Origin: Allomyces arbusculus
Taxonomy: Eukaryota > Blastocladiomycota > Blastocladiomycetes > Blastocladiales > Blastocladiaceae
Assembly (NCBI GenBank): GCA_027604705.1
Contig: JADHYV010000011.1
Span: 451,903 to 515,902 of the forward strand
Reading direction: 5' to 3'
DNA length: 64,000 nucleotides
Shown here: piece by piece, positions 9,658 to 60,980 of the stretch
How the letters are laid out: every line of letters begins with the position of its first letter
Numbering within the stretch: position 1 is the first letter of the stretch
Notes under the pieces: generated by a model
What the model was told of the DNA's origin: nothing
Seen by the model: only the letters and a program-made list of their open reading frames with translations
Databases searched by the model: none
Program-made: the position numbers and the translations under genes

Positions 9658-12424
9658 ATGGCCCCTCGCACAACTGCCTCCCGCGCACCAGCGCCACCAG
9701 CGCCGCGAAACCCCTCCGAGTCGGCGGCTGCGGCGTCGTCATCGTCGTCGCCGTCGCAGGCCGGTAAACCGCGGCGGAAATGGATGAGGTGGTCGGACGA
9801 TGAAGTGGCGGCGCTCCTGTCCGGTGTGGTCAAGGTACCGTTGCTCTATTTTTCCGAAATATGCCTTTCGGCCCGCTGGCGCGCGCGCGTACGCTCTCCA
9901 AGGTCGATTTTGCCCGATGGCGACCATCTCGTGGTCGTTTGCCTTCTATTCCTGGGGCAGGAGCGCGCGCTGGCAGCTTAGTCGATTTGACTGCTGTTAA
10001 ATCTGACAACCAATGTCGCCTCCTTCTGATACGATCGACTCCAGCACGGCGTCGGTGCGTGGTCCATCATTCTCGCCGACAACGAGTTCCAGTTTGACCC
10101 ACGCCGGACGTGGTGCGTTTAATCCTTCCGTGGCAAGTATGGTTGGTGCTGCGCATGTTTGCTGACCCCAAATGTCATGGTTTCCCGGACGATAGTGTCG
10201 ACCTCAAGGACAAGTACGTCCACGGCTTAACGATTGATCAGTGGGGGAAGAAGGTCGTTCTCGCAATACCGTCACTGATTTCGATATGCTTGTTTGTTTT
10301 CTGTCCAGATGGCGCGTCTTGACGTCCGCGCGCAAAAACGCTCCGCCCGCCGTGATCGTGACGCCAACGCACCTGCGAGTCAACATTCCACTGCGCCTGA
10401 CGACGGGCGAATTGCCCACCGCATCGGCCTTAAAGCGGTCACGCGAGGACTCTCCGCTAACCGGCTCTGCACCGTCGACGAAGATGTCCGGCGTCGATGC
10501 GCTGCCGCCAACCTTGGCACCGGCTTTTGGCGGCCAGACGATGGTGCATGGGCCGCCGGCGGTTCCGCATCCGTTCTCCACTATGCCGTCGCCGCCGAGT
10601 GCTGTGGGATCGGCCGAGTCGAGCCATTATTTCTCGCAACCGCACTCTGCACCAGCCATGGAACCTCCTCTGCCAAGTCAATTCGTGGGACAATCGCCGT
10701 ACGTGGGGACGGGTGCGATACCAGCGCACATGTCGCCGTCGGTCGGGCCAGCGGCAAGTACGCCGTTTGGGACTGCACCGCCGCCCGCATTTACCAGCTA
10801 CCACGAGCCGCTGGCTGCCCCACCGCCATTTTCGCCGCCCGTCTCGCACGCGTCGATGACCGCGCTGCCGCCATTCTCGCCGACAGTCGATTCGCACGAG
10901 ACTATGAACGCGACGCTGCCATTTCCATCGTCGTATTCTCCACCCGTTGGCTCGCACGCGCCCTTGGCGGCACCTCCACCCTTTGCTGCACCGGCTCCGT
11001 TTACGACAAATGGCCCGCAGTACGTGTCGGTACCGCCACCACCGCCGCCAACAATGCGCGCGCCAGTCTCGGAGCAGTACGATGGAGGATTCGCGCCAGG
11101 CGCGATCATGCCCACGATCTCGACACCAACATCGATGCCCGCGTTTTTGCCTGCTCCGCTCCCAGCGACGGGGTTGCAGAAGCGGCCCCAGTCGCCTGTC
11201 GTCTCGACGCCAATCATGACGCACTCGGCGCCCGGCGTGGCGCATTCGCATTTGGAATCGGTCTCTCAGCCACTTCCACCCGCACCCGAGTCGTCCATGG
11301 ACGTTGGTGACGAAGGAAGTGAAGTCGGGGATATGGACGATGAGGAACACGTCGAGTATGAGCAAGAACTCGACCCAAACGAGCTGCCGCCGATTCCGTT
11401 CTCGGGCGACTCGCTTGGGTTTGGTTTGCTCGAGGATTTTTTGCAGGGCATGGACCAGTGGGGCGGTGGGTCGTGGTCCAGTGCTGCACCGAGCACCACG
11501 CCCGCGTCTTCGAGCCAGCCGGCACCCGCATCGTCCCAAGTGCAAACCGATGCCAATATCGTCACGCAAAAGCTCCTGGCTGCGCTCTCCACCACCCCGG
11601 ACCGCGCGCCCGTTCCAGACAAGGACATTATGATCCGGCTCGCCGGTGTCGACGACGCGGCGTGGACGCCGCTCATGACGCGCGGTCTCTTCGACCACCC
11701 CTCGGCACCAATCGACACGATCACGTCCGCCGGCACGGCCTCGGCCGGTCCCGGCGCCGGGTCCGACTTTTTCAACGTGCGGCACCACCCGCACCCGCAC
11801 GTAGCCCCGACCGTGGCCCCAAGCACTCGCATCTGGCGACAATTTGGCCTGCGGCGGCAATTTGGTCTGCGCGCGACCGCGCGCGACGGTGGGCGTCGGC
11901 CCGCACGCGACTCGCTCAGTGCGCTCACGGCGTACCGCGCATCGACACCGACTTCGCCCGCACTCTCGTCGCGCAGCGCGTCGCCGACACTTGGTAATTT
12001 GTCCCCGCGGTCGCTGCCGGGCGGCGACGACCATGTGGGCGTGTCGCTTGGCGAACTTGTCGACGCAGCGCTGCACCTCGACCCGCCGGCACTCGCGTCG
12101 GCGCTGGCCGTCATGCGCGACAAGCCGTTTTCGCGGCCGTCATTCATGTCAGCGGCGCGGAATGCGGCGACCACGACGACCACGTCGTCGGGTTCGTCGT
12201 CGACGTGTGTCTCGGCGTCATCGCCGCTCAGCCCAATGCCGCTCGAGTTGCCGCCAGTCGCAGGGATCGGATACTGCGGGATGCCCGCCGCGACGTGGGC
12301 ACCGAAATGGGCCGCGGTTGGTGCGGCTGCTAGCGATCCGTATTCCTGGATCAAGGACGTTGACGCGCGGCTGCGGCATGCGAGTGGGCGGCCGCGGTCC
12401 AAGAGCCAAGGAGAGTTGAGCTGA
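9658..12424 (+). CDS. Telobox-type Myb/SANT protein 1 (candidate telomere-repeat or regulatory DNA binder)
   Basis: Exons 9658..9834, 10045..10112, 10196..10213 (only 18 nt) and 10309..12424 give 792 residues. They join to a single Myb repeat at about residues 40-95: WSDDEVAALLSGVVK, HGVGAWSIILADNEF, DPRRTCVDLKDKWR. The ending VDLKDKWR is the telobox signature of TRF-, Taz- and Tbf1-type double-stranded telomere-repeat binders. The long remainder is Pro/Ser/Thr-rich and mostly disordered, with an acidic patch. Unlike TRF1/2 or Taz1, the Myb repeat is N-terminal, as in plant SMH/TRB proteins. A paralogue at 41,407..43,274 shares the last intron position inside DLKDK. The exact splice joins are fixed by alignment to that paralogue. 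DNA target is inference. Confidence 0.85.
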
Positions 12425-13588: not shown

Positions 13589-14734
13589 TTAGTAGCCGTA
13601 GGCAGGCGTCTGCGTCGGCTTGGGCGAAACCGTGCCGTACGCGGCCGCGGGCGTCGACTTGACCGGCTCCTCAGGCGTCTCGAGCTCACCGTACGAGTCA
13701 TCGGCGGGCGTCGTAGCGATCGGCTCCTCGGCCGACGGCACCGTCGTCGTGGCAACGGGCACCTCGGTCACAATGACGGTCGACGGGTAGGTCTCGGCGG
13801 GGTGCTCAACCACAATCGTCGTCTTGGGGTGACGGCGGCGGCGGTGGCACTTGCGCTTCTTCGGCTGCTCAACCGGGGACGTGGCAACGGGCAGCTCGTC
13901 GGACGGGACCGTCGTCGTCGGCTGCACGTTGATCGTCGAGTAGGCGACGGGCACATCGACCGTCGACGTGACGGCGGGCTGCTCGCAGGGCGTCGTCTCA
14001 GCGGGCGATTCGGGGACAACGGGCGTCGGCGTGACAATCACGGTCTCGGTGCAGTCAGGCTGCGTCTCAACAGGCGACTCGGGCGCGGCCGGCGTCGGAG
14101 TTGTGGTCGCAATCACCGTCTCAACGCAGGGCTCCGTCTTGACGGGCGACTCCGGCGCGACCGGGGTCGACGATGGGGTGGCAATGATTGTCTCGACGCA
14201 CGGCTCTGTCTTCACGGGCGACTCAGGCACGACCGGGGTCGATGACGGCGTCGCGATAATCGTTTCGACGCACGGTTCCGTCTTGGCGGGTGATTCGGGC
14301 ACGACGGGAGCGGTCGTCGGGACAACAGGTACCGTGGCGACAATCGTCTCGGTGCAGGGCTCGGCGGGGGCCGTCTTGGCGGGCTCCTCGGTGGCCGGAA
14401 CCGTGGTCGCAACGACTGGGACGGTGCCGACAATCGTTTCCGTGCACGGCTTGGTCTCAACAGGCACCGTCTGGGCGGGGATCTCGGTCGCGGGGACAGT
14501 CGTCGCGACAACGGGCACGGACGTGGCCGTGATCGTGGTGATGCACGGCTCAGCGGCCGTCGTGGTGGCCACGGGCGTCGCAACGACCGTCGACACGGGC
14601 GCAGCGGTAGCCGTCGGCGGGAGCGCCGTGATCGTCGTGATGCACGGGTCCGTCTCGGCGGCTGGGACGGGCGCGGCGAGGGCAACGGTCGCGACCGTGA
14701 GGGCGAGGAGAGCCTTGATGGTAATCTTGACCAT
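13589..14734 (-). CDS. Secreted Thr/Pro/Val-rich tandem-repeat protein (mucin-like, cell wall or matrix)
   Basis: 381 residues. The frame is open further upstream, but I chose the ATG at 14734 because it begins MVKITIKALLALTVATVALA, a clear signal peptide cut near AAPVPA. The mature protein is a chain of repeats: about 34-residue units with PC(T/I)ETI and VPVVATTVPATE, then about 24-residue units of the form ATPSSTPVVPESPVKTEPCV. Nearly every unit has a single cysteine in a PC motif, giving evenly spaced Cys that could form cross-links. Thr/Ser density predicts heavy O-glycosylation. The last third has a basic KKRKCHRRRRHPK patch and ends AYGY. No GPI signal or enzyme domain is seen. Function in wall, cyst coat or adhesion is inference. 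A TATA box lies about 210 nt upstream. Confidence 0.85.
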   Translation of the reverse strand: MVKITIKALLALTVATVALAAPVPAAETDPCITTITALPPTATAAPVSTVVATPVATTTAAEPCITTITATSVPVVATTVPATEIPAQTVPVETKPCTETIVGTVPVVATTVPATEEPAKTAPAEPCTETIVATVPVVPTTAPVVPESPAKTEPCVETIIATPSSTPVVPESPVKTEPCVETIIATPSSTPVAPESPVKTEPCVETVIATTTPTPAAPESPVETQPDCTETVIVTPTPVVPESPAETTPCEQPAVTSTVDVPVAYSTINVQPTTTVPSDELPVATSPVEQPKKRKCHRRRRHPKTTIVVEHPAETYPSTVIVTEVPVATTTVPSAEEPIATTPADDSYGELETPEEPVKSTPAAAYGTVSPKPTQTPAYGY

Positions 14735-16103
14735 GACGATGGAGTGGAAAAGAGGGATGCGACGAGGCAGCGAGCGGGTGGAGAAGGTCGAGGGTGCGGG
14801 TGAGGTCAACTCACTGCGCGGTCTATGCAGTCTATGGAGTCTATGCGAGCGAGTCGGGACAGCCGGGCGTCGAGGTCGGGTGTCGCGAGCAGGCTTGGTT
14901 CGGTGGTGGGCGGATGGAGGAAAAGCGGCGGGCGGGGGAGGCCGGGGTTATATACTCGGCGCCGAGCCCGGCTTGTGCTTGTCGACGACGGGAAGGGGGC
15001 GAGGCCAAAGGATGAGGGGTGCTTCCCTCGCGCGGTTCTATGAACAGCGTCGCGAGTTGCGCACAACGGCGCCACGAGACCAAGATGCGTTCGACGAGAT
15101 GTGAGCGTCGCGCGCGCCATCGTCGGCGCTGCCCACATGGTCCTGACGCAAATCGGCACGGCCCAATCGGTATCGCGCGCTGGAGTTTTACAAATTTTTG
15201 CCAAGGCTGGTCGATCCCCACGAGCACCGGATCTTCGGCAAGCGCCATGACCGGGCGATGTGGCGTCGGCATTGTGCACGGGCGAGGCGGAAAAACAGGG
15301 TTGCGTCCGAGAAAACCAATGTGGCGTCTGAAGGCGCTTCTTTCGCCCGAGGGAAGGAAAATACCGCGCAAAACGAGAGAGCGCGAACAAAATGGGGATG
15401 CGAAATGAAAGTTACGGCTCAATGTGACTTGTGCGAACAACCATGGGCCACCATGGGCCAAGGAAGGCGCCAAACTTCAAGTTCACCTCTCAAGGCGTGG
15501 CTGCACGTCGAGCCGTGCGACGAGCCAGGCGGAGAGCGCAGACAGCGCGCGTGGGGTGTGTCGCGCGTCGTCGAATTTGCGGCATCTGGATTGTTGCTCG
15601 CAAATTTGGTCACGGTAGGAAGCGCAGCGCGCCTGTGCGGCGGTCGTGGCGAGGCGAGCGTCGGCGCGCGGGGTGTCTGGGACGTTGCACGAGACAGTGG
15701 GATGGAGACACTGTGGGCGGAAACATCTCGCGTCTCGCGGCATTCGGCGTGACAGGCGCGTGGCGTGGCACAGTCAACGCCAGGGGAAGCTGCCTGCGCT
15801 CAGCCAAGTGCGGCCGCCAAGCACGCCGAGGCTGCCGCTGCCTGGGCGACTCGCGCAACCACCGCCGCCACGATCCACGACGCGACGCGACCGACAACGC
15901 TGCGCTGCGGCGGCCAACGACAAGAGCTCGACGACGAGCGCTCCTCTGCACGCGCAACCTGCCGCACTCGCCGCGCCGGGATCTGCTCGCGCGCACGTCG
16001 CCTACCGCTGCGCGCGGTCGCGTCAATCGCACATAGCGACAGATCATCGACCCACACTCAAGTTGCGCCAGCAAACGCCAATACCCAACTGATACGACGA
16101 GCA
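14735..16103. other. Divergent intergenic region (secreted repeat protein / SF3B3-RhoGEF gene)
   Basis: Promoters of both flanking genes should be here. The minus-strand side has a TATA box at 14948..14954. Several open frames cross the region, but they are shadows with alternating CGA/GCG composition and no family features. Confidence 0.5.
14948..14954 (-). promoter_or_regulatory. TATA box of the secreted repeat protein gene
   Basis: TATATAA on the minus strand sits in an otherwise GC-rich stretch 214 nt upstream of the chosen ATG at 14734. A consensus TATA element is rare in this window and fits a strongly or inducibly expressed secreted product. Its use is inferred from position and sequence only. 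Confidence 0.6.
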
Positions 16104-18718
16104 ATGGCGCCCGCATCGTTGCCCGACTCGCCCGACGCGTCAGGCGCGCCTCCGCTCACGATTCCCGTCGTGCAGCGCCGCGCCGTCACGGGCCACTTTG
16201 CCGGCGCGCAGTGGGGCGCGCTGCTGCTCACCACCAACGGCGCCGCCAACATTCAGCTCTATCAAATCGACCCGCATTCTTTTACGCTCATCAAGATTGC
16301 CGAGTGCTTCCTTGGGTCCAACATTCATGGCATCGAGCGCTTGCGCGTTGGCAGGGCCTCCAAGGGTATACATTCGGGCGGAAACGCGCTGCTTTGATCC
16401 ATGGCCGATGCACTCACGCTCGCTCGCACCCCATCGACCACGCACAGACTACATTCTCGCCGCGCTCGAGGGCGGAACGATCCTCATTCTCGAGTACATG
16501 CCCGCCACCGTCACCTTCGAGCAGCTCGACATGGAGCGGTACCAATTCACGCATCACCCGTGGCTGCTGTGGGGCCGCAACATGACGGCCGACTGGCGGT
16601 CGCGATGCGTGATCATTGGTCCGTTTTATCCGCACATCTTCGCTGTCAGATACGCGTCCAGCGCACTGACACTGGTTTTGGCGTTTGCGATGAATGATGT
16701 TCAGGCAACGTCGAGGAGTGCAAGATTGTCTACATTCTCGTTGACCCGGTCGAGACTAAACTCTCCGTCGCGCTGCCCATGGTCGACGCGCTGCCGCATT
16801 CCGTTCTCTACTCGATTGTCTCCGTCGAAATGACCTGGCGCAACCCCGTCTTTGCCTGCCTCGAAGCCTATCGCCCGCACCCGCAGGACGCGCCCATGGC
16901 CGAAACCGCAGCCGCGGCTACGGCCTCACGCGAGGAGGCCATCATGACCGGCGCCAAGCGGCTCGTCTACTTTGAACTCGACCTCGAACAGAACCAGGCT
17001 GTGCGTCGCTGGGACGTGCCCGTTGACCGATCGGCTAATATGGTCGTGCCCGTACCCGGCGATTACGGTGGGCCCGGTGGAGTGCTGGTCTGTTCTCGCA
17101 ACCAGGTCGTTTGGACGCACGAGCGACGCACGCCGCAGGTCGTGCCGATTCCGCGACACCCGTCGCTTGGGCTCGAGCCAGACCTGTACCTCGTCTCCTA
17201 CACGACGGTCCTGCTCGCAGCGCCCGTCGGGAGCAGCGGCGACAGCGTGCGATCGTTGAACCAGAGCCAGCAGCAACAACAGCAGCAACCGCAGCAGCCG
17301 CCATCTCCCGGATCCGCCGCGTCGGGCGGGGCCAAGGGCACCGGCACGGGCGGCGGTGCCATGATCCTCGCGCAATCCATTTTCGGTGACGTCTATGCGC
17401 TCGAGTTCAAAAACGACATTTTGACCATCAAGTTCTTTGACGCGATCCCGCAATCGGAGCAACTGTTCTTGCTCAACAACCGGTTCCTCGTCGCGTGCTC
17501 GCTCTTCGAGTACCCGCGTATCTACTACCTGCTCTCGGTCACCGACGACGAAGACCCGGACCAGCTCGTTTACTCGGCCATGGAACCGACCAAGAAAGAG
17601 GACGCGTTTTTCCGGCCGCGGCCGTTGCGGCACTTGACGACCACGCTCTACCTGACGTCGGCTGCGAACGCGCGGCAGACACAACTGACGAGTCGCATGT
17701 CGATCAGCAGTGGGGCGGGGGTCGTGCGCCGCGGCACCGTCGCATACGGATCGCCGTTCCCGTCCGCACAGCAGCAGCAGGTCGGGTCGCCGAGACCGGG
17801 TGCCCCTTACGGTAAGCCAGCGGGCCACTCGCCGCCGATGAGCGCCATGGCCCCACCAAACTCGCCGCAGTCACCGCAGCAGTACGCGGCGCAGGGGCCG
17901 CCGTCGCCATACATGGGCCGCGTCGCGTCGTCGCCGCTCGCCGCGCAACAGCAACAACAACAGCAGCCGCACATGTCCCCGCCGTCACCGGCCTACCAGC
18001 AGATGATGATCCAGGCGCCGCAGCCGCAGTACCCGCCGGGGGTCGTTGCGCCACAGCAGCGCGCACAGTATGGGGTCTCGCCACAGCGTGCGCAGCAAAC
18101 GTCGCCCGTCTACGCAATGCGGCCAACCCCGCAGCAGCAGCAACAGCAACAACAGCAGCAGGCCGGGTACTACTCAACATCGACGGCGCTCGCGGCAGCC
18201 GCGCAGTATGGACGCGGGTCGGCACAGGGGGCCGCCGTGCTCATGCACCGGCACTCAATGCTCGTGCCGCCGTCGGCCTATCAGCAACAGCAGCAGCAGC
18301 AAGCCGCTGCGCAGAAGCAGCACCAGCAGCAGCAGGGCGGGTACTATAATTGGGCCGTCCCGCCGCCGTCGCCTGCGGGCAGTGCCACGTCGCTGCCCGG
18401 GCCGGCGCCGTACGGGTCGCAGCGGCAGTCATCGCTCGCGCACCGGCAGCAGGTGTTGGTGGGTGGTCGCGCACCGTCGCTTCGTCGGCCAAGATCAGAG
18501 ACGCAGATTATGATGGCGAATGGGAACCCGGCGAACCCGGCCTACCGTATGGTGCAGCCGGCTATGGTTAGCAAGCGGTACTCGTCGCTGAGACGGCAGT
18601 CGTCGACGCCCGGTGGGCCCGCGTATGTGCCCATGGACATGGCCGGTGGGGCGCGGCACTCTAGCTGGGCGCCGGCACCGTCGCCGTACGACCCGCAATT
18701 GCAGCAGATGCAGCAGAT

Positions 18719-18755
<37 letters not shown>

Positions 18756-21245
18756 TTGCAGCCGCACCCGTCCCCGGCCCTATCGCAGAGCCACGATTCG
18801 GGTCTGAGCATGACGTCGAGTTCTGGAAGCAGCGTCGGCTATGGTGGCGGTGGGTCGGCTGTGTCTCCGAAACTCGATGCAATTTCCGAAGAAGGTCACG
18901 GCGCGGGTGGTCGACCGCCGTCGCCGTATACCCCGTCGTCGCCCGTGCTCGACAGCGCCATTTCCATGTCGGACCTGCACTCGGGCGGGACCGCGTCGCC
19001 GCAAACCATGACGCCGCCACCGTTGGCAGCCTCGACGGTCCCGCTCACGCCCATGTCCGAGAGCGACGAGAAGCGGCGGCGCAACATGGAACTGCGCGGG
19101 TACATTGCGCACGAAGTCTACGAGACGGAAAAATCTTACTGCGAGCTGTTGGGTGTGCTCTGGGACCAGATCCGCACGCCGATTGCCGAGCAAAAGATTT
19201 GCTCGGACGTTTTCACGCGCATTGTCTTCACCGGGATCCCGGCGCTGCTGCAGTTTTCGCGCACGTTTGCGGCCGAGCTCGAGCAAGTCGTGGCCAACTG
19301 GGACGACACGACTCACTTGGCGCCCGTCTTTCTCGCGCACCGCGACGACTTTTCCGTCTTCTTGAAGTTTGTCGACAATTACTCGACAGCGCTGAGTATG
19401 GTGCGCAGTGCCGAGCAGTCGAACCTCGAGTTCCGCGCGTTTAACGAGCGGTGCAAGCACGCCAAGGAGACGCACCGGCAGCAGATTCAGGATTTCTTGA
19501 TTTTGCCGATTCAGCGCGCGACGCGGTACCCGCTGCTGATCAAGGACGTGCGCAAGCACACGCCGCTCGACCACCCCGACTACGAGGACTTGTCGGTTGC
19601 GCTCGACATGATGAACGAGATGGCGGCGCAAGTCAACTTGGTCAAGCAGCAGGAAGAGGAAATGACGCGCATCTTTTCCATGTTCAACCAAATGGAAGGG
19701 TGTCCGGCGACCGTCATCAAGTACTCGCGCCGCGTGATCATGGAGGCCGACGTGGGCGACGCGTCGTCGTCGCTCGCTGCGTCTTTGGCGTCGGCCGTGT
19801 CGGGGATCGCGGCGATCAAGCCGACCTATCGACTCGTGCTCATGAGCGACTTGTTGTTGCTCGCGAAGTTGCACAAAAAAAAGTACAAGTTCAACCGGCT
19901 GATCGACTTGGCCGACATCAAGGTCGGTGACGACCCGTCCTCGTCGTCGTCATCTTCTTCCTCGTCGTCGCGCAACCTCGCATGCCGGATTGAGATTGCG
20001 AATGGGTCGCTCTCGTCGCACTCGTCGACGCTCATCAACAAGCACCAGGTGGACCCGAACACGACGCTGCCGTCGGTCTACACGTTCCTCTTCCTCGACG
20101 AAAAGACGCGGCACAGCTTTGTCCTCGCTCTCTCGGCCAAGATTCGCGCCACGCAGGACCAGCGGCAACTCGAGGGGAACGTGTTCTCGCTCCCGCGCGG
20201 GTTAATTGGACAACCGGCCGCGGGACCCGGCGCCGCAGCGACGCTGGCGCGGCGTGGGGATGGCCCACGGCCCGTTTCCATGGCTGGGCCCGTCTTGCCC
20301 GTGTCAGTCCCGATCCCAGGTGGTGCCGGCGCCGCGTCGAGTATCGCGGGGAGTAATGGCGAAGTTACGACTCCCGTCATGTCGCGGCACAGTGGAAGCG
20401 GGCATGGACCGTTGTCAGGGAACGCCGCTGCAAGCAGTACGGGCGCGGTCTTGTCGTTGGCCGTGCCCAACATTTCGCTCGTTCCACCATCGCCCCCACC
20501 TGGTCCAACACCGACGGGTGCGCGGCGCACGTCGCTCATTGTCTTGACGGGCGGCGGAGACAAGGAGGACGAGCCGTCCAAGGAAAGCGACAAGAGCACC
20601 AAGTCCGAGAAGAGTACCAAGTCGGCCGAGCGCGGGCCTGACGATGATGGTGAGTGGGCGCGCCGGCCGTCGGCTGTCACGGACGTGTCGGATGCGCTGT
20701 CGTTTATGGCGCTGCAGGATGAGCCTGTAAACCATCATCACCACCGCGGTCCACCAGCGGCGTCCGCTGCTGACCCAGCCGTGTTCGACGAACAGGGTCT
20801 GGCAATGCCCGCGCGACCAGACGAGGACGACGACGAGTTTGTTGATGCGGCCGAGTTCCCGCCGAGCGCCGATATCCGGCAACGGCGGTCCGCGTCGATG
20901 CCGGCACCGCCAACACCCACGACGGGCGACCCAATCATGCGGCCCATGACCGACGAGCCTTTACCGTCGCCGGCGTCGCTGTCTTCTCGCGTATCGTCGG
21001 CGTTCGGTGGTGTTTTGAGACGCGCGACTTCCCCATCGGGGCCGCGATCGAGTACGGTATCGTCGTCGTCGGGCGCACGGTCGCCGCCGCACACGCCAAC
21101 ACAACACCGCAGCATGGGGTCCGACGACTGGGCGCGTAAAATGTCGTGGACGGCCGCGGCCATGGGCATGATTCGCGGTGGGCCGAGTGCCGCGGCGGCA
21201 GCACAGAGTTGCGGGAGCGCGGCGGCTGCGCAGGGGCCCGAGTAG
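16104..21245 (+). CDS. Fusion: N-terminal SF3B3/Rse1 propeller segment joined to a DH-PH RhoGEF
   Basis: Exons 16104..16365, 16448..16618 and 16705..21245 give 1,657 residues. Residues about 20-455 follow SF3B3 (the SF3b 130-kDa subunit of U2 snRNP) block by block: GHFAGAQWGALLL, DYILAALEGGTILILEY, ECKIVYILVDP, NPVFACLEA, LVYFELDL, GGPGGVLVCS, then EDAFFRPRPLRHL. The two introns are fixed by this match. SF3B3 normally continues for about 800 more residues; here it stops at nt ~17,640 and the same uninterrupted frame runs through a Gln/Pro/Ser-rich linker (~480 residues, polyQ) into a DH domain (about 935-1125, starting ELRGYIAHEVYETEKSYCEL) and a PH domain (about 1150-1305, KPTYRLVLMSDLLLLAKLHK). 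The tail is disordered. DH-PH proteins activate Rho GTPases. A separate RhoGEF start at the ATG near 17,697 cannot be excluded. Confidence 0.85.
18720..18752 (+). repeat. (CAG)11 polyglutamine tract
   Basis: Eleven perfect CAG codons inside the linker of the SF3B3-RhoGEF gene, flanked by more CAG/CAA. Shorter Gln runs occur at about 17,270, 17,950, 18,135 and 18,285. The tract is likely to vary in length. Confidence 0.95.
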
Positions 21246-23854: not shown

Positions 23855-26800
23855 TCAGTGCCGGTTGTGAATGTTCTGGAACATGCTATGCATGATCTTG
23901 AGCGCCGAGTTCTTTTGCAGTGGAGACTTGTCGGCCCCCAGGTTGCCGCTTGGCACGCGCGACACCGCCGACATGGCCGCCAGCGCGTAGCTCAAGCTGA
24001 ATTCGCCATCGTCAGCATCGTCGTCCTCGTCGTCGTCGTCCTCGTCCTCGTCGTCATCCCCGTCACCCTTGGTCGTCCCCGTGTCGTCCTCAAACGCCCG
24101 CGAAATCCGCTCGTCGCGGGCGAGCCGCAACGCTGACGCCGTCGCCGACCTGAGCACAACCGTACTTGGAGCGCGCGGGAGCGCCGACCGACTCGACGCG
24201 GCCGCGAGTCCGCCCGTCGCACTCAAGACTCTACCACCATCCGCGACCGGCGACCTGGGCTCGGCAACAACCGAAATCGTCGGCCCAATCGGCGTATCTG
24301 CACCCGACCCAGTATCAACGACGCCCTGCATATCGCGGTCCATGCCGTGCACGTCCACCCCACCGGCAGCCAACGACAAGGCCGCCATTCGGTCTGCCTT
24401 GAGCGACCGATTCACTTGCCGCCGGCGTTCGCGCAACCGGTCGCGTCGCGCGCTTGATGCGGCCACGAGTTCGGTACTGAGTTGCGCGTTGACGGCGGCC
24501 ATATCCGTGGCCACACTCGTGAAGTCGCGCGCGGTCACGGTCAGCGTGTACATTTCCTGCGCGAGGAGCGCCGCCTGGTACATGTCGGCCGCATCTTGCG
24601 CGGTCAGGGCGGGCGCTGCGTCCGGGTCCTTTTGCACGTCGCCGATGAGGTGCCGCTGAAGGGTATCGGAGAGAGTGACGCGGCGGAACACGCGTCGCAC
24701 GAGCGGGTCCGTGAGCACGGGCTCGACCGTGTCGGTGGTCGTGAGTGGCGGCGCGGCAAAGAGGTCGGCGGTCGAGATGACTGCCGTCGAGGTATTGAGC
24801 GCGTCGCCAAGTGACGCAATTGGAGCGAGCGGGGTCGCCGAGACACCGGCTGTTGGGACGGCGAGAGCCGTACTTGCGGCCAAAGTGCCAGTCGCAGCGT
24901 AGTTCGTCACGAGGTCCGGGAAATCGACTGCGTCCATGGGCCGGATTCTCTTGTCGAGTCGATGGAGCAAGTCCATCAAGGCCTAGTTTGGGGAGCGGTT
25001 GGGTCAGAACGACGCGCACTGAGAGAACAGTGAGAATCGAGTCCCGTACCACAAAGTTGCAGTTGTGCTCCGTCAGCGACACCCCCTGCATCCTGTACGC
25101 GAAAATCGCGAGCGCCTCCTTGGCCCGTTGAATAGCGCCAGTGCAATGAATGTCGGAGGTGCTGTAGGAAAAAATGTTGCGTCAGTGTGACCTTGGCCAA
25201 GGGATAGAATCGAATCAACGAGTGGCATGCACAGACAAGAGCAGTTTTTGCGGCGCACCGAGAGCCAGTGACCCCACTCGTTTCTATTCGGTCAAGCTTG
25301 AGGGTGAGGGCCGATACTGCCTGGCCGAGGAGTGAATGGCGACGCACCATGTCGTCCATTTCGGCACCGCAAACGGCCAGCATCGCGTTGATGGACCGGT
25401 GTGAGACCTCTGGGAACGCCGGGTGCACGATCCCGGACACAATCACGGCCGTGCGGACCTCCTCGCCCGTGTTCCACTTGCGGTCCTGGACGATGCGGTC
25501 AGCCTCTTGGTTGAGCAGCTCCTAACGACGAAATGAAACAAGAGCGTGAGTATGTTAATCTCACACCCACGAGGTAAGAGCACGGTCGCGAATCGTACGT
25601 AATTGAGCCACTTGGCCTGGCCCGCCATGCGCAAATTGGCCGGTCTCAGGTGCGACAAGTCGGTCGTGAGGAACCCACGGCTGGCATGGCATAGCGCACG
25701 CGCCGAATCAGCCACGGCTTGCACGCACGTTTCCGGTGCTGGCGCTTGGTTCTTGATCGGGGACGTCGCCACGGCAACTGGCTCGCCCGTCATACCGTGG
25801 TAGACCGGGAAATCGAGCCGCGCGTCGAGAATGATCTTGCACAAGCCGGCGAGCGATGCGTGCTCGGACCAGTACGGCTTGACATCGATGCAGTGCAAAA
25901 CGACTTCGTCCTAGTTCAGCGAAAAAAAAATGGTTAGAGAGCGTTCAATCATAGGATCTGATAGGAAAGCTCGACAAGTACCCGGTCCGTGTACGTGATA
26001 AAATCAAAGCACACGTGACCCAAGATGCCGCGCTCGATGCACGACGGAACAATGTGGAGGACGTGGGTCATGAGGTCCTGTGTCGATATTTGCCGGACCG
26101 GAACGATTGTAACGCAATAGTCAAAGTCGACGAGCGGGGTCTGGGCAAGTCAAAAAGACGGCCCATTGAGTCAAAAAACAGTTCTGTCAATCCACGCGCG
26201 AAACCTTTTCGAACACTGTACCTGCTCCCAAGTGGAGACGAGAACCACATGACCCGTCGGCTGAATCTCGACGTGGCAGCCGACAAACAATCGCTCCGCG
26301 GTCAGTCCGTCAAACATGGCCTCGATAGTACCGCCTGTCTTCAAAAACGAGCTGACAAACCCGGCCAACGTCGGGTACGCGAGCTGCGCTGGTGGAGGCG
26401 GTGCCGAATCGCCCACGGGCTTGCCGGTCTGCGACGCGGCGCTCCCCACTCGTGTCGACGCTGCCGTCGAATTGGGTTGTCCCGGCCCATTCGGTCCCCA
26501 CACGTTCGACATGCGTCGCCCGAGTACGGCCGCCGCTTCTTGGCCGAGCAATGCGATCGGGACCCCGGCTTGCGCAGCTGACGCGCCGACGGTCGCGTGT
26601 GGCGGCCCTATGTAGGTGATTGCTTCCGGAATCGCCTTGATCTTGACGACAATCTCGTCAACGTCAAACTTGCTCACGGTGAACGTGAGCCGGCGCCGGT
26701 GGAAGAGAGCGACGCCGCGGCGCCCGGCCTCGTCCTTGATCTTGAGCATCCAAATGTTGACGGCCGGGTAGGTCAAGAGAAACTGCGCGAGCGTGTGCCA

Positions 26801-28831
26801 CATTGTGTCCTCGTCGGTGACGTGGCACAGGTGCGGCTGCCGTCCGGGCCACGCTGACGAGACGGTGTACGGGCCGCCGCGTGCGTGAGAGAGCGTGTGC
26901 CGAGTGGCCGATGCCGTGGCTGCACCAGGTGGAAGTCGGAGGGACGGCGCACCCGTGCGTGAGAGTCCCGACGCCGAAAACGCCGAAAACGCGTCGTGTT
27001 TGATCCCGAGCCGTGCTGCGGTAGCCTCCATGATCTCGTGGAATCCGGGGCGCGTCGAGTACTTGACCTGCTGGTCGAGCGGGAGCATGAGCATTGGGAT
27101 GTTGAGCGCCGACGCGACGCGCACGTCGTAGTGGCCCATAATGTACCCGTGCAAGATGGGCGACGCGCCTGGGTCCTGCGCAATGATGCCACGAATCGTG
27201 GACTGCGCAGCCATGCTCGCGTGCATGGCGATGCTGAGCGGGCTCATGCGCGGCACGTGTGTGCGACATTCCGGGTAAATGATGGTGCACCGCGACGCGG
27301 CGCGCGGGAATCGGGTCGATCGGCCCAAGTACCTCAGCGCGAGTTCGACGAGCGGGTCATCGGCGGTTGACGTCACATAAATGACCTTGGTGCGGTCGGC
27401 CATGGCCGACGCGAGCCGCCCGGCGTGCATCGACTCGAACTGGCGCACGTCCTTCATCATGAACCGCACGCGCTCCTGCAGCGACGACGACGGAACGTGA
27501 ACGTGGTAGAGCCACGAGCTCTTGACGTGGTCTTTCCAGTTGGTGACGAGGTGAGAGCGCAGCAGGGCGCACCGCGAGACGTGCGACTCGAGCGCTTTCT
27601 ATGGGCCCCAGGAAAATGACAATGATAAACAAACGAGCAAGCATGCGCATGGCAGAAAAGCATACCGGGCACGGACCATGACTTGCTCGTAAAATTTGGC
27701 GCGCGTCAAGCATTTGCGACGGAACGCCAAGATCAGGCGCACGGCCGACTTGGACACGCACATTTCCGAGTAGACGCGGCGCTGCTGGGCCATGCGCCAC
27801 GTGGCCTGGATCTTGACAATAGCGGCCCAATGGCCGTCCATGCCGCGAAACCGTCGACCGGGCTGCGCCAAGAGCGCTTGCACGTGCGTCGCATTGATGA
27901 TGGCCGGTGCGCAATAGGCAAACGAGAGCTTGAAGGGGAGAATCCCGAGCGCCAGCTTCAAGGTGGTGCCGCCGTCGATGCGGATCAAGTCCACTAATAC
28001 GTCGAGGCATGAGTAAGTGGAGTCAGAGGGCGCTGATGAACAATGTGGAGCGTCGAGAAATATACCAGCGTACAAGAGGCAAACGCGCTCGAGAAACTGG
28101 ATGAGGGTGACGGCGTTGGCGAGGACGGCATGCGAGCGACCTTGAAGAAACTGCGCCAGTGCGGCATTCTCGACTATCCGGCCATTGGAAATAAACAGCT
28201 CCTGTCTAGATTCCTTTAGTAGAGTCAGTTATAGTCCTTCGACAAGAAACTGCGCGGTAGTCGCACGCTTGGGGCAATCGTACCGCGTGTCGCAGCCGGG
28301 TTCCGGATTGCCCTGGTCGTGGTCGTCGGTCGTCACGTCCAAGACTGACGGGAATGGCGTCTTGGGCACCAGAGATAGTGCACCTGGAGGCAAAGATGCA
28401 AGCACGTCAGCCGGGCCAAGCGCCGCAGCCCACTGTTGAGCGTCTCGCTCCCATCATCATACGTGGTCGTTTGCAGGCAATCGACTTGATGCCGGTCGTC
28501 GGAATGAGCGGGGCATGGTCCTGCTTGTTGCCCACCGTCCCATTCTTTCCCTGGGCAGGATCGGTGTGGATGGGCGTGGCTTTCGGGTGGAAATTGGCGA
28601 GCGCCGGCGAGAAGTCGACAAAGCGCGGGAGCACGCCGCGATTGATCAGCGGGTAGAGGCCTTGCTACATGGAAATGAGCGCGATGAAGGACGTCAGGTT
28701 GTATGGCGACGTTGTCGAACTTTGGGTCGGCCCGTTTGGGGCTCTTGCACAGGCCGGCAGCGCTGTGCAATGCGGTTGATGCCCACCCTTTCTACGCGCT
28801 CGGTCCAATATGACTGATTCCGTTGATCCAT
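23855..28831 (-). CDS. IQCH: IQCH homologue (IQ motif-containing protein H)
   Basis: Eleven exons: 28796..28831, 28463..28664, 28284..28383, 28066..28205, 27677..27993, 26222..27598, 25982..26140, 25599..25910, 25259..25521, 25050..25161 and 23855..24982; total 4,146 nt, 1,381 residues. An IQ motif (IVKIQATWRMAQQRR, about residue 220-235) should bind calmodulin. It is followed by the long conserved IQCH region: HVSRCALLRSHLVTNWKDH, MADRTKVIYVTS, ILHGYIMGHYDVRVASALNI, VNIWMLKIKDEAGRRG, FVSSFLKTGGTIEAMFDGLT, GHVCFDFITYTDRDEVVLHC. The C-terminal ~300 residues are poorly conserved, with an Asp/Glu run. In animals IQCH is testis- and sperm-associated. Exon 1 (12 codons) and its 131-nt intron are tentative; the others are fixed by frame and conservation. 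An apparent in-frame TAA near 28,238 lies inside the 78-nt intron 28206..28283. Confidence 0.85.
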
Positions 28832-53279: not shown

Positions 53280-54192
53280 GGCCGGCTCGAGGTGCTCGAG
53301 GAACGCTGAGAGCACTGCGCGACGGTGGACTCGGTTAGTGGCGAGGAAGCAGGGGACCTGAGGCAACTGGTGGAAGCAGAGGCGGGAGGGAGCAGCGACT
53401 TGCAGAGACAGTCAGACTGGTGCGGGACGCACGCGACGGCTCACGCGCGGCACGCAGCGTCACGTGGCGCGCCCACCGCAGGCCTGCCTCGCTCGGTGCA
53501 AGTTCCTGTGGTTTGCGTGGGCGTCACGTTTCCCGTTGAGGCCGCCGCCGTCCACCAGCGCACCGTTGCCATCGCCGCTCCCGCCGTCACCTGGCCCGTT
53601 GCCACGCAGCACCCCCGCCACCACGACCTCGCGCAACGCCGTCGGCCCCCCTGTCCGGTACCTATGCTGTGCTTTTTTGCTGTCCGCAGCGACTTGACCC
53701 CCCCCCCCCCCTCGTCGCGCCGGCCTGCGTGTGCCACACTCGACCCGACCCTCCCGGCCGCCGTGCAGACGACCGCGATCGGGGCCCGATGCTGGTGGCG
53801 GCAGCGTCCTCGGCAATGGCGTCGGCCCCGCAAGGGTGCGGGCCGACGAAAGGCAAAGGTGCCCACGCCGGGGAATGCCGACGAGACGACCCTCCTCGAG
53901 GCACTCCTGTCCACCGAATGGCCTGCAAAAGTGCCGGCCGGCGGGGCCCGCTCACTGGGTGCATGCAGGAGGGCGGCGCGTCGACTCACTAGCCAAGACG
54001 GGTCCAGCGGCCCAGGCCGACCGCACGGCTCGCGCGATTCGCAGCGCGGGGTCCGGACGGGCATGCTGTTCACGGGCGTTGCTGATCCAATCCGCTCGTC
54101 ACACCGTGTGGTTGCCGACTTGTTTAGCCTGCTGCCAAATTGACCGTACTGCGGCACTGCGGCTCGACCCCCCACCCCTACACCACAACCCC
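53280..54192. other. Divergent region upstream of the forkhead gene
   Basis: A 913-nt gap with a C-run of about 12 near 53,699-53,710. The plus-strand frame in front of the forkhead ATG is open for 154 codons, but its composition is unlike the FHA domain and I regard it as untranslated leader or promoter. Confidence 0.5.
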
Positions 54193-57100
54193 ATGGACGC
54201 CGACGATGTGGCCGCTCTCGGAGTCCCGCCCGCCGACCTCCTCGGTGCCGGTGGCACCGACGCGACCCACCCACCCTTGCGCGTCGCCGAGCAGTACCCG
54301 CGCGGGCCCGACGACGAGCCGCAAATCTCGGCCTACGCCAAGCTGGCCGGCCACACCTGGACCTACTTCATCACCAAGACCGTCATCACTATTGGCCGCG
54401 CGTCCGAGGTGGAGGAGGACCCGGACGTCGACCTCGGCCCGACCAAGACCGTCTCGCGTCGCCATGCCGTCATTCAGTTCAACCACGCGACCGCCGGGTG
54501 GGAAGTCGCTGTCACGGGCCGCAACGGCCTCAAGGTGAACGGCACCGTCTTCAAGCCCGCTGACCCGCCCGTTGCCCTGCACCACGGCGACAAGATCTGG
54601 GTCGGCGGCGAGGAATTCATCTTCTGGCTCCCCACCAACCCGGCCGACGCGGCCAATGACGATGCGCCCGCCGACGAGGACGACCTTGCCCCCGACGCCA
54701 TCGCAGTCGAGGAGGGGACTGACGACGACCACGGCCGCGACCACGATCACGATCACGACGGCGACGACGACGGCACCTACGATCCGGGTGCCCTGTTTGA
54801 GTCCTCGTATATCGAGCCCGCCCTCGTCGAACAGCCACCCGCGCCCAAACCGCGCGCCAAGAAACGTGGCCGTCGTCGTGCGACGCAGGACGACGAAGTC
54901 GAGGCCGACGAGGATGCCGCCGAGGCCGAGGCGGCGGCACCTGTGCCGCGGACAACCAAGAGGACCCGGGGAGCGAGCAAAAAGAAGACGGCCGCCGCTC
55001 GCCCGAGCGACGGCGCCCCGACGAAAAGAGCCTCTGCGCGCAAGGGCAGTAAGCGCGCGGCCGAACACGACGCCGAGCCTGCCGCGGTCGATGTCGGCGA
55101 GTTGCCGCTCGTGACGCGACCGAACAAGCGAGCTCGGGCAGCGGCGGTCGCGGCGGCTGCAACCATCGCCGCCGCGGCAGGTGCAGGAGCGTCATCAAAT
55201 CCGTTTGCCGAGGCGACCCAGGTTGACGTGGCCGACCTGGATCTCAACAACGACTTGGACCTGCTCGATTTTGAACAGCACATGGCCGAGACGGCCGAGC
55301 ACGACAACGTGCCCATGGACCTCATCAACTACGAGCCGCGCTTCCCATCGCCGCCCGCATTCGAGTCACTCACGCCCGCCGCGATCCGCGCCGATTTTAT
55401 GCGCCGACGGTCCGTCGACTACAGCGACGACCGGTTCCGCGACATCAAGCCGCCCTACAGTTACGCGACGCTCATTGCCGAGGCCATCAACTCGTCGGAT
55501 ATCAAGGCCATGTCGCTGTCCGAGATTTACCAGTTTATTTCCGACCAGTACGCGTATTTCCGGCACGCGACGCACTCGTGGCAAAACTCGGTGCGACACA
55601 ACCTCTCGCTCAACCGCGCCTTCCAAAAAGTCGCGCGCCCGGCCAACGCGGCCGTGCCCAAGGGGAAAGGGTGCCTGTGGCGCATTGATCCGGCGCACGC
55701 GCACGAGCTCACCGACGAGCCCAAGCGGCCCAAGCGCAAGGCCGCCGAGCTCTACGGACTCGACGCCAATGGCAACTCGGCGCTCACGGCCAACTACCCG
55801 CAGCACCCGCCGATCCCCATGCACCCGGCCCTCGCCGGCGAGTTTGGCCCCTACGGGCCCATGTACTCGAGCAATTTTCCCGTCTTCCCGCCGGCACCGG
55901 CACCAGTGCTCGCGCACCTCGCTCACCCATTTGCCCCGCCACCCGGGTTCCCGCTCCCGCAGCCGCAATTGCCCGAAGCGGTGCTGGCGGCCGCAGGTGC
56001 CGCCGCCATTACTCCGCCGGCGTCGACGAGTACGACCAACCTGTCATCCGCTGTTCTCCTACCGCCGGTGCCTGTGGTGACGACGCCGGCGCCACTCAGT
56101 ACGCTCGCGTCGCTGTCGGCGGCACTTCCCTTGGTTCCTGCGCCGCCGATCCCGCACGTTCCGGCGCCCCCGCAGGTACCGGCACCCGCACCGTTGGTGG
56201 CAGTCGACGACGTGGTCCCGGTGCACGCAGCGACGCGGCCATACCGGTCCTACTACTCGCTCTACCACACGACGCCCGATCTGACGCAGTTGCCCACGCC
56301 GGCATCGATCATGAACTCGCTGCCCAAGGTATTCAAGACGTTCCACGCCATGGATTTGCCGCCGCCCACCGACGCGCCTGAGCTGGTACTAGGCGATTTT
56401 TTGAACCGCGGCTCGTTTGCGCGCATCGGCACCGAGCTGAATCTGACCAAGGATCAGGTCAAGCAGAACCACGCGGCCGCCGTGGCCGCGGCCGCGGCCT
56501 CGGGGGACGTGGTCGCGTTCACGCCGCAGATGCTCCCGCCGCAGCGGCGCAGTGTCGCGTCAGCACAGGCTGCGTCGCGACCAAGTGTGGGACGTGGAGG
56601 AGCGCGGTCGCGGAACGGGCAAGCGTCGCGCAGTGGTGGTGGTTCGCGCGCGGCAAATACGGCATCTGCGGCGCGGTCCGCATTGGGCCATGGCGGCGCG
56701 CGCGCGGCAAGTACGGCACGCGCAATCGGTTCGCGTAGTGTGCTCTTGCACCCGTTGACGATGCGCGACCACCCGGACGCAAATGTGCTGCAGTTTACAT
56801 TGACGGCGCCACCGCTGACCGCATCGACGCCAAGTCCAAGCGCAGGTCTGGGGCCGCGACCGGTCGCTGTTTCAGCGTCGACCAGCAGCTTGCCGATGAC
56901 GAGTACGCCCACGACCGCGGCGCAGTTTGTGGCCATGACGACCGGCCCGGCCACGACGGCCGTTCTCGCCATCCCATTAACGACGACTGCAGCCGCTCCC
57001 GTGCCCGCAACAACAATTTCCTCAAACCCGGTTCGCTCGGGTATCGTTGCGCCACCACGTCCCGTCACGCCCATCCCGCGCGCGTTCCCGCCACCACCTG

Positions 57101-57477
57101 GCATCCCGCCGGTTACTGGCATCGCGGCGCCACCGCAACCGTTCTTTGCCCCACGCCCGCCCACCATGTACTCGCCATCGCCCTACACGCCGTACTACAC
57201 GCCCGCACCTCCATACGGCGCGTTCGGCGTCGCTGGGTATTATGCGCGCATGTTTGCGCAGCAGCAGTTGCTTGCACAGCAGCAGCAGGTGCGGCCGCCA
57301 CCACCAGCAATACTGACGGGCGAGCCATCGCTGGGGGCGCCGCCAGGCATTCCGCCCTCAACAGGGGCAGGGCTGGTTGCACAAACAGCAGTGCGGCCTC
57401 CTGCACCACCAACAAGTGTGGGGACTGTGGGTCTAGGAGGTGGAATTGTGACACAACCTTCAGCCGCATCAGCTTGA
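54193..57477 (+). CDS. FHA-forkhead transcription factor (FOXK / yeast Fkh1-Fkh2 type)
   Basis: A single exon gives 1,094 residues. An FHA domain at about 40-145 (TVITIGRASEVEE, SRRHAVIQFNHA, GRNGLKVNGTVF) binds phosphothreonine partners. A long acidic and Lys/Arg-rich region follows. The forkhead winged helix is at about 418-505: KPPYSYATLIAEAINSS, MSLSEIYQFISDQYAYFRHA, SWQNSVRHNLSLNRAFQKV, GKGCLWRID. The FHA-plus-forkhead order is that of FOXK and yeast Fkh1/2, which regulate cell-cycle and replication timing genes. The C-terminal half is Pro/Ala-rich except for a conserved-looking block near 690-770 (YRSYYSLYHTTPDLTQLPTP, then GSFARIGTELNLTKDQVKQN) of unknown role. The start at 54193 is chosen because MDADDVAALGVPPADLLG leads directly into the FHA region. 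Confidence 0.95.
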   Translation: MDADDVAALGVPPADLLGAGGTDATHPPLRVAEQYPRGPDDEPQISAYAKLAGHTWTYFITKTVITIGRASEVEEDPDVDLGPTKTVSRRHAVIQFNHATAGWEVAVTGRNGLKVNGTVFKPADPPVALHHGDKIWVGGEEFIFWLPTNPADAANDDAPADEDDLAPDAIAVEEGTDDDHGRDHDHDHDGDDDGTYDPGALFESSYIEPALVEQPPAPKPRAKKRGRRRATQDDEVEADEDAAEAEAAAPVPRTTKRTRGASKKKTAAARPSDGAPTKRASARKGSKRAAEHDAEPAAVDVGELPLVTRPNKRARAAAVAAAATIAAAAGAGASSNPFAEATQVDVADLDLNNDLDLLDFEQHMAETAEHDNVPMDLINYEPRFPSPPAFESLTPAAIRADFMRRRSVDYSDDRFRDIKPPYSYATLIAEAINSSDIKAMSLSEIYQFISDQYAYFRHATHSWQNSVRHNLSLNRAFQKVARPANAAVPKGKGCLWRIDPAHAHELTDEPKRPKRKAAELYGLDANGNSALTANYPQHPPIPMHPALAGEFGPYGPMYSSNFPVFPPAPAPVLAHLAHPFAPPPGFPLPQPQLPEAVLAAAGAAAITPPASTSTTNLSSAVLLPPVPVVTTPAPLSTLASLSAALPLVPAPPIPHVPAPPQVPAPAPLVAVDDVVPVHAATRPYRSYYSLYHTTPDLTQLPTPASIMNSLPKVFKTFHAMDLPPPTDAPELVLGDFLNRGSFARIGTELNLTKDQVKQNHAAAVAAAAASGDVVAFTPQMLPPQRRSVASAQAASRPSVGRGGARSRNGQASRSGGGSRAANTASAARSALGHGGARAASTARAIGSRSVLLHPLTMRDHPDANVLQFTLTAPPLTASTPSPSAGLGPRPVAVSASTSSLPMTSTPTTAAQFVAMTTGPATTAVLAIPLTTTAAAPVPATTISSNPVRSGIVAPPRPVTPIPRAFPPPPGIPPVTGIAAPPQPFFAPRPPTMYSPSPYTPYYTPAPPYGAFGVAGYYARMFAQQQLLAQQQQVRPPPPAILTGEPSLGAPPGIPPSTGAGLVAQTAVRPPAPPTSVGTVGLGGGIVTQPSAASA

Positions 57478-58963: not shown

Positions 58964-60980
58964 ATGCCCGTCACCACCACCTTGTCCATGTTGGTCAAGA
59001 CACCGATTTCTGGCCAACCAGCAACAATTGAAACGCTCAAGGCCAATGGCTTGAACTGGCCAATGTTCTCCAAATGCATTCTGGGCTTCTTAACGTCCAA
59101 CTAACTTGATATCGAAAGGTTCAGCAGGGAGAGAGAATTCATTTGGGGCGTGAACTCTGCACTTCATGGTGGTGGCAACCAAACCCTAGGTTGCCACCGT
59201 CATTTACAAGTGGGACCAACTCACACAACTCCAGCGGTGAAACGACAAAGGAAAAACATCAAAGGGGAAACACAAATGCGAGCCAAACACTCCAACACTT
59301 GAAGGCCTGCTCAAACTCAAGTCCTACAAGATATTGGTTGACACTGAGTACGAGACTGTGGTGCTGGAACAGCAAGAGGAAATGACGGATGTGCAATTCA
59401 AGAAACTCATCGAGGTTGACTCAGATGTCAAGTTAGTTGCCAATGCGATTTTTTGGAATGGCCCTGCCATGGCTGAGTGCAAGAAGTGCATGGCCCACAA
59501 CTGCTACAAGGCCATGTTGTGCATCTGGACCATCATCAAGGTCATTTTGCCGTCTGCCGTTGCGTCTGAGCTGCTGCCAATTTTTTCAGACGCCACATGT
59601 GTTGCTGATGCATGGGCTCTGCTGTGTGCTCAATTCGATAAACACTCTGCCCAAGCCCACCTCACGAATGTCAAGGGACTGTTCATGAAGCCCATGTTGG
59701 GCTCTGGCACTGCTGTGGTGCATGAACACATTGCTGATTTGCAGCGTCATTTCGACGTGATTTGGCGCCATGAATGCGCCAAGTCGTCATTGCACCTGCA
59801 CACCAGATTTGCTGACTCGTTTTTGGTACTCGTGCTGCTCGCATTGCTGCCACCTGAGTATTCACCGATGGTGCTCTTGTTGGGTGAACACTATGAAGAA
59901 TTGTCACTCGTCAAGCTGCAGACAATTCTTGAAGGCGCTGCAGGCCAGCTAGTGGGCGGTTCTGGGTCCGAGGTGCAGGTGCTTGCTGTAACGAAGTGCA
60001 AGGACATGAATGCGTGCTACAACTGTGGCAAGAGCAGCAATTATGCCCGTGTCTGCCCACACTGTGACCAACAGTGCAAGGGTGGTGCTGAAAGCTCGAA
60101 CTGGCGCAAGAAAAAGGACGCAAATGTCATGGCCAAGAACGGAGAGGAGTGCGCCATGGTGCATCTGTTGGTTGAAGAGTATGAGCATTTGATGGCATTC
60201 GCCCATGGTGCAGACGCAGCTGGTGTTGTTTTTGGTGCAGCTGAATTTGACGGATTTGTGTACTACCCGCTTGTCGCCCTCTGCCCCGAAAACGTGAGAC
60301 TTGAACGTCAAAGCCATCAGGGCACGGCGATGCTGCCTGGCACGTATCTGCCCATTATCCATGTTGATGCGTCGAATTATGAAGAACCAGATCCTCACCA
60401 CAACCTTGCGCGCACACTGGTGCCTTTGTCGTTGCACTCCTGTCTTGCACAGAGCCCAAAAGTTGACCCAGCCACCAGCACGCATTTTTGCAGTGACAAG
60501 TCGCTGTTTGCCATGCTTGACGACATGCAACCAGGCGATGGGTTCCTTGTTTCCCTCAGCGACCACTGCGTGTGCTTTCTGATTGGCAAGGGCACAATGC
60601 GCATCTGCACACCAACAGGCAGTGTTATCCACTTCAACCTGGTCTGGTATATTCCCAGATTCAAGACACTTGTGTTGGTCTCTGAGCTGTACGATTGAAC
60701 TGCTGTGCATGTGATGTTTGGGGAACAGAATGTGCAGTTTGTGCACTGCAAGACAGGCGATTTGGTCGCCAAGGGCGTGCACCATGGCGATACGTGGATT
60801 ATCCCAGGCGCGTGCAAAAAGGGACCGACCAAGGATGCGTGTGTGCTCGATGTTTGGGGTAAGTGCCCTGTCGGTGTGCATGTTGCCAATGCGGTCAAGA
60901 AGGTGTTGCTCACTGAGCTGTGGCACACACATCTGTTTCACATTGGTCATGATTGTGTTTCAGCCGTGTGCACGCTGTGA
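58964..60980 (+). pseudogene. Copia copy 1 gag-pol, inactivated
   Basis: The frame opens MPVTTTLSMLVKTPISGQPA and is stopped by TAA at 59102..59104, where copy 2 has CAA (Gln). A solo LTR is then inserted. It resumes with KSYKILVDTEYE, continues through DVQFKKLIEV, FWNGPAMAECKKCMAHNCYK and the gag capsid-like region to a zinc knuckle CYNCGKSSNYARVC in which the His is replaced by Asn. The protease-linked segment STHFCSDKSLFAMLDD and GKGTMRI follow. An in-frame TGA at 60696..60698 precedes FVHCKTGDLVAKG and the pre-integrase LWHTHLFHIGHDCV, which ends at a stop at 60980. Reverse transcriptase and most of integrase are absent. Confidence 0.9.
59110..59297 (-). mobile_element. Solo LTR (188 bp) inserted in copia copy 1 gag
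   Basis: This is the reverse complement of the family LTR: on the minus strand it begins TGTTGGAGTGTTTGGCTCGC and ends CTGAACCTTTCGATA. It is flanked by a perfect 5-bp target duplication CTTGA at 59105..59109 and 59298..59302. Removing the insert and one CTTGA rejoins the gag reading frame (LEGLLKLKSYK), matching LEALLEIKSYK in copy 2. It closely resembles the copy 2 LTR and keeps more CpG than its host element, so it came later. Confidence 0.95.

Follow-up and report, generated by a model that had tools for sequence, protein, structure and literature searches.

An SF3B3-type propeller joined to a RhoGEF in a duplicated gene of Allomyces arbusculus

The 64,000-nucleotide stretch of Allomyces arbusculus DNA analyzed here (hereafter, the window) carries a gene that joins one beta-propeller of the splicing-factor SF3B3 type to the DH domain and PH-like region of a Dbl-family Rho guanine nucleotide exchange factor (RhoGEF). 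The gene occupies positions 16104-21245 of the forward strand, from an ATG at 16104 to a stop codon at 21245, and is modeled with three exons (Table 1). Its predicted product of 1657 amino acids consists, in this order, of an SF3B3-type propeller (residues 20-455), a Q/P-rich linker (456-939), a DH domain (940-1140), a PH-like region (1141-1299), and a tail. The same architecture is found in a second gene on another contig, C98, of the same genome (25.9 Mb in 197 contigs, designated below by C-numbers). Its recurrence on a second contig rules out both an assembly join and a chance in-frame neighbor: the fusion is real. The propellers of SF3B3 are parts of a three-propeller scaffold in the SF3b complex, and DH-PH proteins are Rho activators. 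We propose that the window locus is probably one Dbl-family RhoGEF gene, in which the first propeller of SF3B3 (beta-propeller A, BPA) has been repurposed as a module for targeting or regulation, comparable with the CNH propeller in fungal Rho1 GEFs.

Both parts of the fusion are recognizable within a single open frame of 1515 codons (16698-21242, forward strand). The frame matches the Pfam models PF10433 (Beta-prop_RSE1_1st; E = 8.7e-15, frame residues 5-158, profile positions 123-254 of 351) and PF00621 (RhoGEF; E = 1.1e-42), the latter over its full profile (1-180 of 180), and therefore contains a complete DH domain. This agrees with a preliminary description of the same DNA, which had read a single frame through a polyQ/Pro linker into a RhoGEF. 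The same description held that the first ~455 residues resemble SF3B3 and that the likeness ends abruptly after an RPL+HL block; we place the end of the similarity at RPRPLRHL (residue 455, nucleotide 17636). When the propeller part encoded by exon 3 was compared with PDB sequences, all 10 matches at E ≤ 1 were to SF3B3, RSE1, or one "putative pre-mRNA splicing protein." DDB1 and CPSF1 belong to the same three-propeller superfamily as the source of the fusion, but no PDB chain of either matched this part at that threshold. One scan of viral contigs yielded no relatives of it.

In the SF3B3 of A. arbusculus itself (own SF3B3), the equivalent motif, KPRPLRNL, follows the stretch matched by the first-propeller model and precedes that matched by the second-propeller model, which indicates that the borrowed unit is propeller A. 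The models for the second propeller (PF23726) and for CPSF_A (PF03178) did not match the fusion exon at E ≤ 1, and both are present in own SF3B3; propellers B and C are absent from the fusion. The fusion shares with SF3B3/Rse1 the sequence of propeller A, intron positions, and the RPLxxL block, but it lacks the second-propeller and CPSF_A regions and is joined to DH-PH. Its other half has the layout of Dbl-family RhoGEFs such as ECT2: a complete DH domain and, behind it, a PH-like region. ECT2 has N-terminal BRCT repeats, whereas the N-terminus of the fusion is the SF3B3 propeller. Three motif regions of the DH domain (YETExSY, ILPIQRATRYPLL, and AAQVNxVK) are conserved in both fusion copies and presumably have a catalytic role.

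The paralog was modeled at positions 14990-9535 of C98 (reverse strand) and encodes 1758 amino acids, with propeller, linker, DH domain, PH-like region, and tail in the same order. Its uninterrupted first exon matches PF10433 (residues 2-123, E = 2.2e-6), and its DH domain matches PF00621 (E = 7.8e-42). Region borders were drawn by us from the alignments. In global alignments, the two products are identical at 326 of 404 positions of the propeller (81%), 147 of 362 of the linker (41%), 133 of 201 of the DH domain (66%), 81 of 148 of the PH-like region (55%), and 116 of 298 of the tail minus its last 30 residues (39%), of which 6 are identical. MAFFT alignments gave 320/408, 143/358, 133/201, and 81/148 for the first four regions and 144/325 for the whole tail. 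Within the propeller, the window product has a Q-rich insertion (about 17260-17350), where the C98 product has a shorter Gly/Thr stretch.

Substitution patterns differ among the regions. Synonymous divergence between the two copies (dS, Nei-Gojobori method) is 0.93 in the propeller, 0.88 in the DH domain, and 0.94 in the PH-like region, and this similarity indicates that both halves were duplicated together. The existence of the window and C98 copies is best explained by duplication of the fusion gene as a unit. The ratio of nonsynonymous to synonymous divergence (dN/dS) rises from 0.14 in the propeller to 0.27 in the DH domain, 0.42 in the PH-like region, 0.51 in the linker, and 0.57 in the whole tail. 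From this ranking, the propeller is under tighter constraint than the catalytic domain. Because the alignment of the two linkers scores far above shuffled sequences (241 versus a mean of 41, a standard deviation of 22, and a maximum of 107 in 200 shuffles) and short motifs persist in it (RQSSLAxRQQV, RRPRS, and KRxSSLRR), we conclude that the linker is coding in both copies. The window linker extends over 484 codons without a stop, and none of 2000 base shuffles of it (0/2000) was stop-free.

These patterns also bear on whether the locus holds two neighboring genes instead, with a truncated SF3B3 copy followed directly by a separate RhoGEF that happens to be in frame, as the preliminary description had offered as its alternative. 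The propeller is indeed a partial SF3B3, and the similarity to SF3B3 does stop abruptly. Yet both copies keep the parts in one order and lack any stop from propeller to DH, although they have diverged by about 20-60% depending on the region, and both the conserved linker motifs and the strong purifying selection on the propeller speak against a chance arrangement. We regard this explanation, which the second copy contradicts, as very improbable. An assembly chimera or a pseudogene has a negligible probability, given that nothing was seen in favor of either, that there is no N in the 64-kb window or in C98, that two separate loci share the architecture, and that the dN/dS of the propeller is so low. 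On the basis of the C98 copy and the pattern of constraint, the separate-gene, pseudogene, and assembly-chimera readings were all rejected.

The surroundings of the two copies were compared using frames of at least 80 amino acids from the window and from the whole 57,870-base C98. No shared neighborhood was detected at E ≤ 1e-8: all 11 matching rows, which include overlapping antisense and shifted frames, fall inside the two fusion genes. Segmental duplication was therefore rejected. Because their neighborhoods have no further similarity at this threshold, the two fusion copies are dispersed.

The genome offers a candidate source for the propeller. At least 10 matches to PF10433 were found genome-wide, at five loci: own SF3B3 (C18), DDB1 (C25), a gene on C9, the window gene, and the C98 paralog. 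The C9 gene is taken as CPSF1 by elimination. A weak CPSF_A match (33 bits, E = 3.1e-7) was also seen at G000:C12:264862-265167, away from the contigs that carry the SF3B3, DDB1, and C9 genes. The preliminary description had suggested looking for an intact SF3B3 gene; the C18 gene has all three Pfam regions and matches the PDB SF3B3 chain 5o9z_w (1183 bits), which we take to be human. Its 1240-amino-acid model aligns to this chain except for about 35 residues near the C-terminus, which are skipped; the model thus probably includes one unspliced in-frame intron there.

In its propeller-A part, own SF3B3 has two introns, one between SK and D and the other within the Gly of I-G, both in phase 1. 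The window gene shares both, with codon and phase unchanged. The C98 paralog reads through the site of the first, has the second in an identical codon and phase, and carries an extra, separate 72-bp intron at the DH-PH junction (between NVIK and YTRR). In own DDB1 and the C9 gene, the reading frame continues across the intron 2 position, but this position was assigned by eye and provides a lead rather than a test. Introns common to own SF3B3 and the window gene suggest that the propeller was most likely copied as genomic DNA, from an SF3B3 gene, and not via mRNA. The proposal that a partial SF3B3 duplicate was captured as an N-terminal domain is therefore supported by the C98 paralog, the similar dS values, the SF3B3 introns, and the complete SF3B3 elsewhere in the genome. 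We suggest that BPA was copied together with its introns, ending near the boundary between BPA and the second propeller (BPB), that it was joined to a RhoGEF as an N-terminal module, and that the whole gene would then have been duplicated.

The borrowed propeller has since diverged from SF3B3. In the part encoded by exon 3, human and own SF3B3 are 56.5% identical, while the fusions are 31-36% identical to either (the window copy 31% to human and 33.5% to own SF3B3) and 76% identical to each other. This part has 141 columns in which the residues of human and own SF3B3 coincide and neither fusion has a gap; of these, 56 are retained in both fusions and 85 are not so retained, a further difference from SF3B3/Rse1; 62 of the 141 hold an identical replacement residue in both fusions. 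Such a pattern would fit the loss of old binding surfaces and the gain of a new one that was later frozen. Given that the propeller is the best-preserved part of the protein, it has probably taken on a new function of some importance.

We also considered that the fusion retains SF3b or small nuclear ribonucleoprotein (snRNP) partners and thereby brings Rho activation to the nucleus or the spliceosome, a placement raised in the preliminary description. Descent from SF3B3 and the 56 invariant columns kept in both fusions would agree with this possibility. In SF3b, however, SF3B5 and the C-terminal HEAT domain of SF3B1 are held between BPA and the third propeller, BPC (PMC7452928). BPC is absent from the fusion; because a lone BPA cannot form this clamp, the splicing role is unlikely to have been simply carried over. 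The replacement residues shared at invariant columns argue in the same direction, as does the absence of any simple nuclear localization signal pattern (K-K/R-x-K/R, a crude regular expression) common to both copies outside the PH region; each copy has a site of its own, at residue 934 in the window product and residue 1748 in the C98 product. Nuclear or snRNP placement is therefore unsupported, and we consider it unlikely.

The fusion can also be compared with Rom2/Rgf1-type fungal Rho1 GEFs, in which a DH-PH GEF is likewise paired with a domain from the seven-bladed class of propellers (PMC9697909). Their CNH domain is C-terminal and is not known as SF3B3-derived, the fusion exon has no CNH match at E ≤ 1, and A. 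arbusculus carries a CNH-RhoGEF as a gene of its own on C8. In fission yeast Rho1 GEFs, the C-terminal CNH is needed for cell-wall function (Rgf1p) or viability (Rgf3p), and the CNH of Aspergillus fumigatus Rom2p contacts switch II of Rho1 (PMC9697909); the function of CNH in fungal Rho1 GEFs is described there as unknown. This precedent, together with a propeller more constrained than the DH domain, would be compatible with the propeller acting as a lid that autoinhibits the GEF or as a surface that binds Rho directly, and not as a docking module. Against this version, the linker is long (484 amino acids) and poorly conserved overall; we hold it to be doubtful.

Under the interpretation that we favor, a RhoGEF with a repurposed BPA, the DH-PH half would charge a Rho-family GTPase with GTP. 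The propeller, having lost much SF3B3-specific sequence, would most likely act in protein docking or autoinhibition and thereby set the place or time of GEF action; the flexible Q/P linker, which carries possible phosphorylation motifs, would tether it.

Several points weigh against this interpretation. Exons 1 and 2, scanned alone, gave no Pfam match, and the genome-wide PF10433 search matched only exon 3 of the window gene; the two exons are based on alignment to the C98 paralog (84% identity across 70 amino acids for exon 1) and to own SF3B3. The dS values of the linker (1.21) and the whole tail (1.39) exceed those of the propeller, DH domain, and PH-like region. The sole Pfam match in the PH region is to PF22286 at E = 0.22, below the cut-off, although its position behind the DH domain and its conservation in the C98 copy fit the assignment. 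An AlphaFold2 model of 16707-17654 alone, from a single sequence, has a mean predicted local distance difference test score of 38.9 and is unusable for evaluating a seven-bladed fold. The gene model comes from genomic sequence, so isoforms without either half are possible, and translation as one protein is predicted. The fusion is known from the genome of one species.

In the gene model, splice pairs were chosen by retention of the reading frame and of homologous sequence, among one GT-AG pair tried for intron 1 and nine for intron 2. Two alternative pairs for intron 2 are also in frame but lose conserved residues.

Table 1. Features of the fusion gene in the window
Feature	Positions	Strand	Description
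Exon 1	16104-16365	+	ATG, short N-terminus, start of propeller A from about 16161
Intron 1	16366-16447	+	82 bp, GT-AG, phase 1, between SK and D
Exon 2	16448-16618	+	Propeller continued, DYILAALEGG to RSRCVIIG
Intron 2	16619-16704	+	86 bp, GT-AG, phase 1, within Gly of I-G
Exon 3	16705-21245	+	Propeller remainder, linker, DH, PH-like region, tail; includes stop
Propeller A remainder	16705-17636	+	Ends RPRPLRHL; matched PDB sequences are SF3B3/RSE1-type
Linker	17637-19088	+	Q/P/S/A-rich, 484 aa; short basic Ser motifs kept in C98 copy
DH (RhoGEF) domain	19089-19691	+	Pfam match; top PDB sequence match ECT2
PH-like region	19692-20168	+	Weak sub-cut-off Pfam PH match; behind DH; conserved in C98 copy
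Low-complexity tail	20169-21242	+	RRTSLIVLTGG and ARKMSWTA motifs conserved with C98 copy

The genome has 23 matches to PF00621. The RhoGEF architectures examined were those of the two fusions and of genes on C17, C2 (Cdc24-like), and C8 (CNH type). CNH matches were found on C8, C117, C35, and C15; of all contigs, C8 alone combines a CNH match with a RhoGEF match, and the two lie in one gene. An IFT57 gene (top match of 143 bits, with three archaeal controls below the cut-off) and twelve chitin synthase matches suggest a zoosporic fungus.

Elsewhere in the window, an IQCH-like ATP-grasp match lies at 26174-27598 (reverse strand); IQCH is associated with sperm or cilia, which would suit a flagellated fungus. 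A Pol_BBD match with a weak copia-type gag match at 59241-60695 (forward strand) is a probable long terminal repeat retrotransposon fragment and overlaps the stretch of lowest GC content (0.49, 58-60 kb). Two frames have no Pfam match: a Pro-rich open frame of 728 codons (10238-12421, forward strand) and a secreted-looking, Thr/Pro-rich frame of 452 amino acids (13592-14947, reverse strand) with imperfect 72-bp repeats at 14058-14305. A frame of 1259 codons at 53698-57474 (forward strand) has FHA and forkhead domains.

In the parts of the open-access literature that were consulted, we found no description of an SF3B3-RhoGEF fusion. A table of promiscuous domains lists RhoGEF, and MMS1 and CPSF go unmentioned in the consulted portion of that article (PMC4102429). 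At its most speculative, the spliceosomal propeller could be a Rho-switch sensor that binds a conserved partner, possibly SF3B1/SF3B5-like or SAGA-linked, and connects the state of the nucleus or of splicing with the control of actin and the cell wall through two paralogous GEFs in a zoosporic fungus, a scenario that we rate as quite unlikely. As we interpret the locus, a single SF3B3 propeller would have been lifted, introns included, onto a signaling enzyme, and the resulting gene was duplicated, with the propeller constrained more than the catalytic domain of the enzyme. The fusion would then be a clear natural example of how a domain from a splicing complex can be reused in GTPase signaling, and it would independently parallel the CNH propeller found in Rho1 GEFs of fungi.

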